Assembly (NCBI RefSeq): GCF_003390325.1
Contig: NZ_QUOK01000003.1
Span: 62,001-126,000, forward strand
Direction of reading: 5' to 3'
DNA: 64,000 bases
Source of the DNA: Rhodohalobacter sp. SW132
Lineage (GTDB): Bacteria; Bacteroidota; Rhodothermia; Balneolales; Balneolaceae
Below, one piece after another: positions 54,952 through 60,556 of the stretch. The position numbers and the translations under genes were made by a program. Position 1 is the first letter of the stretch. Every line of letters starts with the position of its first letter. The notes under the pieces are model-generated. The model was not told the origin of the DNA and searched no databases. It worked only from the letters and a program-made list of their open reading frames with translations.

Positions 54952-55245
54952 ATGACATACCGAGAACTTATAGATACTGTTGCCGATTCCAGGGATATCT
55001 CTAAAAAAGAGGCAAAAGAGATTATTGAAGGGATATTCGGAACTCTCACCGATGAGCTGGGCAATGGCCGGGGTGTATCTATTCCAGGACTTGGTACCTT
55101 TTCTGTTAATACACGAGACGCCCGAAAATCGTACAGTCCGCATCATGAAAAATATATGATGCTTCCTCCAAAACGGGTTGTGAATTTCTCCCCCTCGGCG
55201 GGCCTCAAGGAAACCGTAAAATTCCCGGAGCCCGACGATGAGTGA
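54952..55245 (+). CDS. HU-like DNA-binding protein
   Basis: 97 residues. It has the HU fold order: helix MTYRELIDTVADSRDISKKEAKEII, then GVSIPGLGTFSVNTRDARKS, and a C-terminal strand-helix. The DNA-binding arm differs from classic HU: it lacks the RNP block and is rich in His/Tyr (SYSPHHEKYMM). It binds DNA as a dimer in the family. Its last 8 bases overlap the HU-LysM gene start, so the two are translated together and could form heterodimers. Confidence 0.88.
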   Translation: MTYRELIDTVADSRDISKKEAKEIIEGIFGTLTDELGNGRGVSIPGLGTFSVNTRDARKSYSPHHEKYMMLPPKRVVNFSPSAGLKETVKFPEPDDE

Positions 55246-56473
55246 GAAGATCACTTTTAAGGAGCTCGTTGAAAAAATTTCAAAAAATACCCAACTAAGC
55301 GAGCAAAGAACCGACAGCTTTATTCATGAGCTGGTTGGGATCATTGAATCCGGTCTCGAAAAAGGGGAAAAGATTACGATCTCTGGATTTGGCAAGTTTG
55401 AACTACGGTTCATGGAGGAGCGAAAAGGCCGGAATCCGCAGACCGGGGACGAAATTACAATTCCGGCTCAGAATAAGGTTGTCTTTAAACCGTACAAAGC
55501 GCTCCGTGAGCATGTGAATCTTCCATTTAAAAACCTTCAGCCTCAGATTTTAGATTCACCTGATAAGCAGGAAAAAGAATCGGATCATACCGCACCTGTT
55601 GCCGCTGCATTATCTACTGTATCTGCAACTCAAAGCAAGAAAACCAAAGATGACCCGGCTGAAGCTGAGGAAAGTATTGAGGATCTCGTTCGGGAACGTC
55701 CTAGTCCTGTAAAGGGGAAAATCCCTAACCAATCCGTCCCGCCGAAACCTGTGCCTGAAAAAGTTTTAATAGAACAATCTTCAGATCAAAAAAAGGAACA
55801 ACCGAAAAAACTCCCGCCGCCTGCTGCAAGCCCCAAAGAGCCTGACCGCGCTGTTCAGGAGTCAGGAAGGTTTCATTGGTCGTATGCAGCAGCATCCATT
55901 CTAATTCTTTTGGCCGTTTTTTTGATACTGTTCCTGATTTTTTCAAGACAGGAAACCACAACTCAAACCGAGCCCGAAATTGCAGGCCAGACGCCGCTTG
56001 AGCAGATTGAACAACCCGCTCCGCTCTCACCTGCTCCATCAGCAGTGGCGGATGAACCTGAAACTCCCGCAGTTGAAGAGGAATCGGCAGAGGCTGAACC
56101 CGCTGCCGACCACCGGGAATATTCCATTCAGGCTGGTGAATCACTCTGGTCAATCGCGGAGCAAACCTATGGAGATCCCTATCTCTGGCCGCTTATTTAC
56201 GGTGAGAACCGGGATCAGCTATCAAATCCGAATCAGATCAGCAGCGGAAACAGCCTGTTAATACCTGAAATCGGAGATCCTGAAAATTTATCTGAAAACG
56301 AGGCAGTTTCAGTTGCAAGAGGATATCTCTCTGTGTATGATTGGGTAAGAGCCAACCAACCCGAGTCTGCCAGATATTATCTCTGGGCTGCCGGTTCCTA
56401 CTCTCCTGAAGAGTTAGAGAGAGTATCAGACAGAGTAGATCAGCAAGACCTGACCTTCGCAACGCAACGATAA
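55238..56473 (+). CDS. HU domain - transmembrane - LysM fusion protein
   Basis: 411 residues. Residues 1-92 form a full HU domain (TISGFGKFELRFMEERKGRNPQTGDEITI, with the canonical RNPQTG arm). A Pro/Glu/Lys-rich linker reaches one transmembrane helix (about 213-235, AAASILILLAVFLILFLIF). A second acidic linker leads to a LysM domain (about 293-343, EYSIQAGESLWSIAEQTYGD ... LIPEI). The topology implies DNA binding inside and peptidoglycan binding outside. Cotranslated with the small HU gene. Confidence 0.9.
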   Translation: MSEKITFKELVEKISKNTQLSEQRTDSFIHELVGIIESGLEKGEKITISGFGKFELRFMEERKGRNPQTGDEITIPAQNKVVFKPYKALREHVNLPFKNLQPQILDSPDKQEKESDHTAPVAAALSTVSATQSKKTKDDPAEAEESIEDLVRERPSPVKGKIPNQSVPPKPVPEKVLIEQSSDQKKEQPKKLPPPAASPKEPDRAVQESGRFHWSYAAASILILLAVFLILFLIFSRQETTTQTEPEIAGQTPLEQIEQPAPLSPAPSAVADEPETPAVEEESAEAEPAADHREYSIQAGESLWSIAEQTYGDPYLWPLIYGENRDQLSNPNQISSGNSLLIPEIGDPENLSENEAVSVARGYLSVYDWVRANQPESARYYLWAAGSYSPEELERVSDRVDQQDLTFATQR

Positions 56474-57121: not shown

Positions 57122-60100
57122 TTACTCCTCTCCATCGAGTGTGGTCATAAATTCTACAAGGTCACGAAGCTGGTTCCGGGTCAGCAGATCGCCCATTGGA
57201 GGCATGGAAGACGGTGAGTTTGTACGCTCTTCAATTTGATTTTTGTCAATTGAACGTTGTTCACCGCTAACCAGGAGCACAATGGTTTCGTCTGTTTCTT
57301 CTTCAAGTGCACCACGTACGGTTTCGCCATCCTGAAGAGTTAACGTTACAACACCATACCCTGGTGCTACACTCGCAGAGGGGTTGACCAGGGATTGCAG
57401 CAGAAATTCACGGTTAAACCGGTTTCCAACATCGCTCAAGTCGGGCCCTACTTCAGCGCCGCTACCCGCCACAGCGTGACAGCGGATGCATTGCGCGGCA
57501 GCATCCTGGTAAAAAACCTGCCGCCCGGATTCAGCATCTCCGCCATAAAGGGTTTCAGTGAATCCGGCGATTGGATCATCCGCTGCCCTGATCGCGCGAT
57601 ACTCCAGTATTTTGTCGTTAAAGTCTTCTGTGCTGATTTCTTCAGCTGCCTGAATCAGTTCAAGATGTACTTCAGGCTCCAGTTCACCGGCTATAAGATC
57701 ATCAAGCTGTTCATGGATAAAGGCACGGGTATCTTCATGATCCAGCGTTTCAAGTGTTCTTAAGGCTGTCTGTTTCTCATCCACAGATCCGTCATGGAAT
57801 GCGGATATAAGCAGCGATACTTTCACGTCATCGGAAATATCGAGTGCGGGAATCATGGTGAGTGCATTCATACGGACGCGGCTTTCCTGATCCGTTAGGG
57901 CAATCCGGATCGCCTCATCAATTTCATTATACTCAAGATCACGAAGTCCGCGAACGGCTGCGATTCGAACATCAACCGAATCATCCCCTTCCAGCAGAGC
58001 GTAGATAGAAGGAGTAGCATCCGTATAGCGGAGCTCAGAGGCTGCTTCGATAGCAGCAATTCGGATATCGGATGAATCATCTGAAAGCAATCTTTCAGCT
58101 ACAGATGCCAGGGCATTTCGCGCATCGTCGCCGCTGTTTGAAATTTGCCCGCGGTGCCGGCCGGTAACCCTGTCAAAGATAGAGGGCTCCTCCCAGTACT
58201 GTAGCGTATTTAATGCTTCAACGCGGAGATGCTCCGGATTGGATGATTCGGTTGCAAAGTCCGTCAGCCTTTCAGCATCCTCGGAACTGCCGCTGTAAAG
58301 CGATGCATTAATTGTCCGGCGAATGAGCGGCTCGTTATCAAACTGCCCGTCAGTGAGCAGCCGGGCCAGTTCGGGAATCGCATCTTCGATATAGTGATCA
58401 TCACTGATCGCGCGTGCCGCATTGGTTACAATATATTCATCTTCATCTTCCAGAAAACGGACTATGCCGGAGCCCTGCAGTCGTTTCATTGCAATGACGG
58501 CTGCCACACGGACAGCACGTGATGAATGATCGGCCAGATCGGCCACTGAATCGGCATCATCAAAACGTGAAAGCGCGATTGCGCCAGCGTGACGCAGGTA
58601 AATATCTTCATCATCGTTATCAGCCAGCATAGCCACTATATCATCAAAAGATTCAGCAGCCTCCATCCGTCCGAGCGCTTCGGCTGCAAAAAACCGAACG
58701 CGGGGGTGCTCATCCTGCAGAAGTGGTGTCACCGCATCGGCGGCAGGTGAGTAACGCACATCACCCAGCCAGCGAGCCGCCTGGGCACGGATTTCGTAAT
58801 CGTCATCTTTCAACAATTGAATAAGCGGCTCAACGGCGTCAGAACTACTTCGGCCGATCTGAGCCAGTCCCCAAATTCCGTGAATTCGTGCCAGCTGTTC
58901 ACTGCTTGTTTCAATTGCTTGCAAAAGTGAATCTTCATCGCCTCTGTTAGCCAGTTCAAACTGCGCTTTTTGACGCACTCGCATATCCTGGTGACCCATC
59001 AGTTCAATCAGCCGGTCGGCGTTGTGATCGGAGAAATTTTCTCCTAAAAGATTTTTAGTTTCAACCCTGATCTCTGATTCAGCATCTTCGGGGGAGTCGA
59101 GTTTCCAGATTCTGCCTTCATCATTGATCGTCCAACCCTGAACCCAGTCCGTCATATAGAGCGCGCCATCCGGACCAAAATCGAGTCCAACGGCAAGGAT
59201 TCCGCGGAGGGCTTCTTTTTCTTCATCCAGTTCAAACGAAGCTCCATTCTCTTTCAGGGTAAAAGAATAGATCGGAGAGTTCGCAACCGATCCGCGAAAG
59301 GACATCACAAAAAAGTGATCTTCATAGCTTTCGTTAAGCGCCGTTCCGGGATTGTAAGCCATCCCGGCAGGACCCGTATAAGACTCGGCAAGCGGGGGCA
59401 GAACGTGTGCCGCCTGATCATCCCAGTGCGGTATATAGTAGTCCTCATCCATCCATACTTTATATGAATTATTTTTTGGATCGGTGTATTTTCCAAACTG
59501 CCAGTTGATCCTCCAGCCGCTGTCCGATCCGTTTACCAGGTAAACGAGCCGCTCAAATTCCCCCGCATGATCGCCGTCATTATCGATCGTAATCAGGTTG
59601 CCGTATTTATCAAAAACAAATTCGTGAGTATTTCTAACTCCGGCTGCGAACACCTCAAAGTTGCTTCCGTCGGGATCAGAACGCAAAATCGCTCCCTGGT
59701 TGGGATAGTGCCACTCTTTGCCATCCTGGTCCTTCACACTGAATCCCATATCTCCGACTCCCCAGTAAACCCTGCCATCGGGACCGGTCGTCAGGCCCGA
59801 CATTCCGTGCCCGCTAAACCCGATATGCACGTTATAACCATGACTGATGGATTCTTTCCAGTCACTCATTCCGTCATTATTTGTATCCCGAAGTCTCCAC
59901 ATATCGGGCCCAACGCCTACAAATACTTCATCGTTGAAGTGCAGAACGGCACCAGCCACATCGGTTACTTCATCGTGGAAATCACGGATAAATAGCTGCG
60001 CCTGGTCCGCCATGCCATCTCCATTGAGATCTTCCAATCTCCAGATCTCCTCCTTCATCACCGTAAGATCACGCCAGTCGTGTGATCCATCTTCGTTTCG

Positions 60101-60556
60101 GTCCGGCAGCCATGTGTTTTCATCACTGCGTTCAGGAGCCAGTTCGCTATGGAGAAATTCGCGGCGATCTTCAACGGTTTCCCATTTCATCGATTCGATG
60201 AGCCAGCTGCTGTCTACGTCCCGGATATCAAATTCTGAATTCCGGCTCCGTTTAGTGACCGTAACCCACGCTTTGCCCTCATCATCCATATGGATAGCTA
60301 TGGGGTCACCCAGCAAATCTTTCGTAGCCCATAGTGAAATTTCAAGATCATCCGGAAGGTCCACTGAAATTTCTTCAAGACTTTCACGTGCCTCCGCTTG
60401 TGCTTCCTCCGCAGAAACGGTTCTGATTTCCGGTTCGGGGGGTTCTTCGCCGCAACCGCTTAAAAAAAGCAATGGTAGCGTTATCATTACGATTGAAAAA
60501 GATAGGGACTTAACGGAGATTCCTTTATTACAAAATGGTAGAGTATAACGAGCCAA
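57122..60556 (-). CDS. PVC-type dehydrogenase with HEAT repeats and C-terminal cytochrome c
   Basis: 1144 residues with a lipoprotein signal whose lipobox is LLFLSGC (Cys near 35). A beta-propeller dehydrogenase domain (about 50-490; MHDEGKAWVTVTKR-type strands, DLNGDGMADQAQLF, GVGDMGFSVKDQDG, GPAGMAYNPG) is followed by a long HEAT-repeat solenoid (about 510-1000). A C-terminal haem domain has the CxxCH site AAQCIRCHAVAGSG near 1020 and a later Met in SSMPPMGDLLT. It should oxidise a sugar or similar substrate outside the membrane and pass electrons through its own haem. Substrate unknown. Confidence 0.87.
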   Translation of the reverse strand: MARYTLPFCNKGISVKSLSFSIVMITLPLLFLSGCGEEPPEPEIRTVSAEEAQAEARESLEEISVDLPDDLEISLWATKDLLGDPIAIHMDDEGKAWVTVTKRSRNSEFDIRDVDSSWLIESMKWETVEDRREFLHSELAPERSDENTWLPDRNEDGSHDWRDLTVMKEEIWRLEDLNGDGMADQAQLFIRDFHDEVTDVAGAVLHFNDEVFVGVGPDMWRLRDTNNDGMSDWKESISHGYNVHIGFSGHGMSGLTTGPDGRVYWGVGDMGFSVKDQDGKEWHYPNQGAILRSDPDGSNFEVFAAGVRNTHEFVFDKYGNLITIDNDGDHAGEFERLVYLVNGSDSGWRINWQFGKYTDPKNNSYKVWMDEDYYIPHWDDQAAHVLPPLAESYTGPAGMAYNPGTALNESYEDHFFVMSFRGSVANSPIYSFTLKENGASFELDEEKEALRGILAVGLDFGPDGALYMTDWVQGWTINDEGRIWKLDSPEDAESEIRVETKNLLGENFSDHNADRLIELMGHQDMRVRQKAQFELANRGDEDSLLQAIETSSEQLARIHGIWGLAQIGRSSSDAVEPLIQLLKDDDYEIRAQAARWLGDVRYSPAADAVTPLLQDEHPRVRFFAAEALGRMEAAESFDDIVAMLADNDDEDIYLRHAGAIALSRFDDADSVADLADHSSRAVRVAAVIAMKRLQGSGIVRFLEDEDEYIVTNAARAISDDHYIEDAIPELARLLTDGQFDNEPLIRRTINASLYSGSSEDAERLTDFATESSNPEHLRVEALNTLQYWEEPSIFDRVTGRHRGQISNSGDDARNALASVAERLLSDDSSDIRIAAIEAASELRYTDATPSIYALLEGDDSVDVRIAAVRGLRDLEYNEIDEAIRIALTDQESRVRMNALTMIPALDISDDVKVSLLISAFHDGSVDEKQTALRTLETLDHEDTRAFIHEQLDDLIAGELEPEVHLELIQAAEEISTEDFNDKILEYRAIRAADDPIAGFTETLYGGDAESGRQVFYQDAAAQCIRCHAVAGSGAEVGPDLSDVGNRFNREFLLQSLVNPSASVAPGYGVVTLTLQDGETVRGALEEETDETIVLLVSGEQRSIDKNQIEERTNSPSSMPPMGDLLTRNQLRDLVEFMTTLDGEE

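Follow-up and report, generated by a model that had tools for sequence, protein, structure and literature searches.

We analyzed a 64,000-nucleotide window of the Rhodohalobacter sp. SW132 genome, the whole stretch of DNA considered here, in which the first-pass annotation had described a second HU-like gene overlapping a gene for an HU-transmembrane-LysM protein by 8 bp. Both open reading frames (ORFs) are present as claimed on the plus strand, with 8 bp shared between the two reading frames. The features of the locus are as follows.

54952..55245, plus strand: partner HU gene, 97 amino acids (aa), a PPK-type HU with a full-length arm (TRDARKSYSPHHEKYMMLPPKRVVNF); from the ORF, Pfam profile, and tree clade (100/97)
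55238..56473, plus strand: HU-TM-LysM gene (TM, transmembrane), 411 aa; from the ORF, Pfam and NCBIfam profiles, and genome survey
55238..55245, plus strand: 8-bp overlap of the partner and HU-TM-LysM reading frames (ATGAGTGA); from the sequence and relatives
55256..55528, plus strand: HU domain, residues 7 to 97, predicted cytoplasmic, with an IHF-like arm (ERKGRNPQTGDEITIPA); from Pfam, structure model, Foldseek, and alignment
55529..55876, plus strand: disordered cytoplasmic linker, residues 98 to 213 (family median, about 119 residues); from the structure model and relatives
55877..55948, plus strand: transmembrane helix, residues 214 to 237; from hydrophobicity, flanking charge, and structure model
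55949..56110, plus strand: disordered Pro/Glu-rich periplasmic linker, residues 238 to 291; from the structure model
56111..56266, plus strand: LysM domain, residues 292 to 343, beta-alpha-alpha-beta; from NCBIfam, family profile, and fold matches
56294..56467, plus strand: C-terminal helical tail, residues 353 to 410; from the alignment and structure model

A promoter and terminator scan gave no signal above chance. Elsewhere in the window, the minus strand at 57122-60556 encodes an 1144-aa protein in which HEAT-like repeats and, at the C terminus, a CxxCH cytochrome motif were read by eye.

Both window proteins matched the Pfam Bac_DNA_binding model (81 and 96 bits versus a cut-off of 22.4), and the HU fold was modeled confidently, with Foldseek matches to HU/IHF structures at an E value of 1e-7. 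This combination of an HU fold and a profile score over the curated cut-off places both proteins in the HU/IHF (DNABII) superfamily, and both have the two-stranded arm with an intercalating proline expected of its members. The 411-aa protein contains one hydrophobic segment, which was modeled as a helix at residues 214 to 237. Its C-terminal domain scored 17.4 bits against Pfam LysM, under the cut-off of 20.9, and only 6 of 27 relatives matched that model; the NCBIfam Kbp/LysM model gave 44 bits, below that equivalog's own cut-off of 134. When the C-terminal part was modeled alone, the mean pLDDT was 94 and the best fold matches were almost all LysM proteins. The comparison of the family profile with solved LysM proteins (E value of 6e-10) settles the assignment of the predicted domain, which combines a beta-alpha-alpha-beta fold with a profile match despite the sub-cut-off Pfam score. 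The previously proposed architecture of HU, a single membrane helix, and LysM is therefore borne out by Pfam, NCBIfam, the family profile, and the structure model, but that description had missed the conserved helical tail at residues 353 to 410. The tail following LysM is conserved in Balneolaceae and TPR-like in part of the family. In the alignment it comes in two flavors, one longer and ending in DLxFAxxR and one shorter and TPR-like.

No signal sequence precedes the HU domain in the 411-aa protein. The flank before the helix had more lysine and arginine residues than the flank after it in 37 of 38 Balneolaceae proteins and in 16 of 20 distant relatives, and the mean net charge of the flanks in Balneolaceae was +0.47 before the helix and −2.71 after it. 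Based on the missing signal sequence and this bias in flanking charge, we predict that HU is cytoplasmic and LysM periplasmic, which supports, as a prediction, the earlier placement of HU inside and LysM outside.

The partner gene lay immediately upstream of the LysM-HU gene in all Balneolaceae loci examined, with spacing from −11 to +2 bp across the relatives measured and the 8-bp overlap most frequent. Among 39 loci measured from the conserved start, some of them from the same genome, 36 overlapped by 1 to 11 bp (25 by exactly 8 bp) and 3 had the genes 2 bp apart. This prevalence of overlap suggests that the two genes are translationally coupled. The flanking genes encode aconitase and Dabb proteins (as in the window), a HemW-type radical SAM protein and a hexapeptide protein, or are rimO and moxR, and the pair is the sole element that stays constant across the three contexts. 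A conserved operon larger than the pair is ruled out because the neighbors differ among them.

We surveyed the architecture, as the first-pass annotation had proposed, and found it to be common in Balneolaceae and to recur in a distant order beyond Balneolota. Both genes were present in 56 of 67 near-complete Balneolaceae genomes and neither in the other 11. The partner profile gave the identical 56/11 split; the 11 genomes showed ordinary HU scores only, and a check with the HU family found no HU-LysM in them. The full layout in 56 of 67 genomes, always with the partner gene, excludes a chance architecture. Presence and absence are mixed within each of four genera (g5, g6, g7, and g18), indicating that the pair changed state jointly several times. 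MreB was found in all 67 genomes, which rules out MreB loss as the cause of the pair's absence. All named matches in the genome scan were Balneolaceae, including the cultured Rhodohalobacter sulfatireducens, and the window's order yielded the pair in no other family. Outside Balneolaceae, two phylum-wide samples (296 and 394 genomes) were positive in families f46 and f134 only. Within the order to which the f46 and f134 genomes belong, as many as 53 of 296 genomes, spread over about 15 families, were positive, a few of them matching in the C-terminal part only; the gene context of ftsY, rimO, and a MoxR/Bat cluster points to Bacteroidales. A small HU gene was directly upstream in 20 of 20 distant-order loci examined, the two genes were adjacent or overlapping, and the pair adjoined rimO and moxR/Bat. 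These matches rule out a restriction of the module to Balneolota. Judged by sequence comparison, the two overlapping HU genes are a conserved two-gene module.

We determined the relationships of these proteins with a maximum-likelihood tree of 110 HU domains, in which the deeper order is not readable from an alignment of only 101 columns. The partners of Balneolaceae and the distant order formed one clade (100/97), the LysM-bearing HUs of both groups formed another (99/94), and all 23 ordinary HUs fell outside both. The tree thus gives the module of the two groups a common origin. The history of the pair would be vertical descent with loss or transfer, two courses that the tree does not separate. 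Another conserved HU, IHF-like and 108 aa long, adjoins a YqgF-type gene in Balneolaceae (L004:1462-1788) and had a long branch in the tree.

The first-pass annotation noted that HU fusions to SPOR-like wall-binding domains are known in Bacteroidota, and this kinship proved closer than thought, since the same genome has such a protein with its own small HU partner. The Rhodohalobacter genome encodes an HU-TM-SPOR protein beside an ExbB/TolQ-type gene, and a 69-aa truncated mini-HU with the motif MPPKDSIEF precedes the HU-TM-SPOR gene with an 11-bp overlap:

L005:1293-1502 and 1492-2616 (own genome, contig C1 near 471,900): mini-HU and HU-TM-SPOR genes, with the ExbB/TolQ-like gene next

The arrangement is repeated in relatives. 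Elsewhere in the phylum, a single chain carries HU1 (PPK)-HU2, and most of these chains continue with a hydrophobic segment and a SPOR-like C terminus (L181-L188; second HU and SPOR part read by eye). From this domain order, the predicted mini-HU plus HU-TM-SPOR pair amounts to a one-chain HU-CCDC81-SPOR protein divided between two genes. Replacement of HU-LysM by HU-SPOR is unsupported, as most HU-LysM genomes also match the HU-SPOR query. The prokaryotic HU-CCDC81/HU-TM-SPOR type (Pfam PF18174 and PF18175) was reportedly described by Burroughs, Kaur, Zhang and Aravind in 2017 (Cell Cycle 16:1093). PMC8195603 cites Burroughs et al. 2017 for the HU-CCDC81 type. The plan of that type, two HU units with a membrane helix and a wall domain, is supplied here by two genes. 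The partner scored 18.6 and 26.8 bits against PF18174 and PF18175, below both cut-offs (26 and 35), and the 411-aa protein scored 15.1 bits against PF18175, under the cut-off of 35; no SPOR match was found in the 411-aa protein, whose C-terminal wall domain is LysM. The two-gene system shares the HU-SPOR plan but fails the cut-offs and lacks SPOR, and we therefore take it to work like that type without being a member of it.

Fusion of two HU units in one lineage and their strict adjacency in another make a heterodimer of partner and LysM-HU the most economical reading, and the one-chain HU1-HU2-TM-SPOR proteins elsewhere in the phylum make it likely that this heterodimer is obligate. A paired heterodimer had been suggested from the overlap of the two genes; as far as sequence can speak to it, the pairing is strongly supported by co-occurrence, overlap, reciprocal clades, and fused counterparts.

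We compared the arm residues of both subunits. In Balneolaceae, the arm proline was present in 22 of 23 LysM-HUs and in 22 of 23 partners, and the LysM-HUs kept arm Arg58 (21/23) and Lys83 (23/23), with Arg55 lost from most. In the distant order, all 20 partners had the proline and none of the 20 LysM-HUs did (L072, L073, and L094-L111), the residue being replaced mostly by Val or Ile. The distant-order pair would be an asymmetric heterodimer in which the partner alone keeps the proline, and the DNA-bending role is possibly carried by the partner. The HU domains of the window have net charges of +2 and −2 and so are not strongly basic; ordinary HUs of the same family range from −4 to +4. The HU of the SPOR protein in the same genome has no DNA-binding arm. 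Since full arms are kept in the LysM module and the arm is missing in its sister, the LysM module is the likelier of the two to bind DNA.

From these features we infer dimerization, DNA binding, peptidoglycan binding, and nucleoid tethering. We favor, with a probability of about 0.6, the reading that the pair is a split, arm-bearing, LysM-ended counterpart of HU-SPOR whose heterodimer passively links the nucleoid, the inner membrane, and the cell wall. The two genes would be translated together and their products would pair as an HU heterodimer, one half being the 97-aa partner and the other the N-terminal domain of the 411-aa protein, which a flexible stretch of about 115 residues would tether to the inner membrane. 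Binding of this heterodimer to chromosomal DNA would be nonspecific, as it is for HU and IHF. LysM would be carried by a flexible periplasmic linker whose roughly 55 residues could span the gap to the murein, and peptidoglycan binding by LysM would complete the passive link. The lengths of the cytoplasmic tether and the periplasmic linker would make such a link geometrically easy. Joint retention or loss of the two genes across the family, together with their recurrence in a distant order, makes it probable that the pair anchors the chromosome to the wall. Weighing against a tether, 11 near-complete Balneolaceae genomes live without the pair, the HU domains carry little net charge, most Balneolaceae LysM-HUs lack Arg55, the distant-order LysM-HUs lack the arm proline, and the nearest solved LysM is that of Kbp. 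More tentatively, and at slightly less than even odds, the obligate heterodimer may form a dedicated, direct, single-complex link of DNA, inner membrane, and peptidoglycan that positions or segregates the nucleoid alongside the HU-SPOR sister in Bacteroidota.

The HU domains could instead have turned into protein-binding dimerization modules, with the complex acting as a scaffold that organizes the envelope or the division apparatus without DNA. A protein-binding dimerization role has been proposed for the HU-CCDC81 proteins of eukaryotic centrosomes, and the low net charge of the HU domains, the loss of the DNA-binding arm from the sister HU-SPOR protein, and the partial matches to HU-CCDC81 and HU-HIG models are consistent with it. 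We consider a scaffold unlikely, since both HUs of the LysM module have full-length, strongly conserved arms and the proline is kept nearly throughout Balneolaceae. Signaling from envelope to DNA, with LysM plus the helical tail as a sensor of the wall and the HU dimer as a regulator of specific genes, would fit two conserved domains on opposite sides of the membrane. However, the two linkers, disordered and about 115 and 55 residues long, are poor transmitters of conformation, and the gene neighbors are not conserved, which leaves no obvious target genes, making signaling improbable. The closest solved relative of the LysM domain, Kbp, binds potassium; peptidoglycan binding does not follow from the fold by itself, and the domain might bind a ligand as Kbp does while the protein merely places the HU dimer at the membrane. 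Against this, HubP depends for its placement on a periplasmic LysM that is reported to bind peptidoglycan (PMC8789113). The LysM domain here is likewise predicted on the periplasmic side of the helix, and the C-terminal domain of the sister module, SPOR, binds glycan; we regard a Kbp-like role as very improbable. An inverted protein, with HU outside binding extracellular DNA, recalls the HU-family proteins known from biofilm matrices but is barely credible given that no signal sequence precedes HU and that the flanking charge points to HU inside in 37 of 38 Balneolaceae proteins.

If the pair is a passive tether of nucleoid to wall, it bears on the long-standing question of how the nucleoid is attached to the envelope, for which the known attachments are mostly indirect or specialized. 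As a candidate direct link, the HU-LysM pair is small, widespread, and simple in its genetics. It is present in Rhodohalobacter, a genus in culture, and apparently also in Bacteroidales, and the partner gene and the pattern of co-loss make the tether idea testable. We found no paper describing the HU-LysM architecture in the literature covered, to which Burroughs et al. 2017, where it could be mentioned, does not belong. The HU-TM-LysM pair is real and conserved and holds more interest than its first description suggested, but its design varies a known architectural theme.

The pair resembles HU-CCDC81/HU-TM-SPOR proteins in combining a PPK-type first HU unit with a second HU, a single membrane helix, and a wall-binding domain at the C terminus, and both systems occur in Bacteroidota. 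Unlike them, its HU units are separate overlapping genes, both full armed, with LysM instead of SPOR, whereas in the SPOR system of the Rhodohalobacter genome a shortened mini-HU accompanies a SPOR protein whose HU is armless. HubP offers a working parallel to the proposed tether: its periplasmic LysM guides the placement of this inner-membrane protein, which in turn positions a chromosome origin (PMC8789113). HubP/FimV of Vibrio shares with the 411-aa protein a periplasmic LysM, one membrane helix, a long acidic cytoplasmic part, and the holding of a chromosome region at the envelope, but HubP acts via ParA1 and has acidic repeats and TPRs and no HU (PMC8789113). The domain order is opposite, no match to the cytoplasmic acidic repeats or C-terminal TPR/FimV region was found in the 411-aa protein, and HubP/FimV is not a relative. 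As in HU/IHF (DNABII) heterodimers, two paralogous HU subunits are inherited together and the 411-aa protein has an IHF-like arm; unlike in those heterodimers, one subunit here is membrane anchored with a periplasmic LysM.
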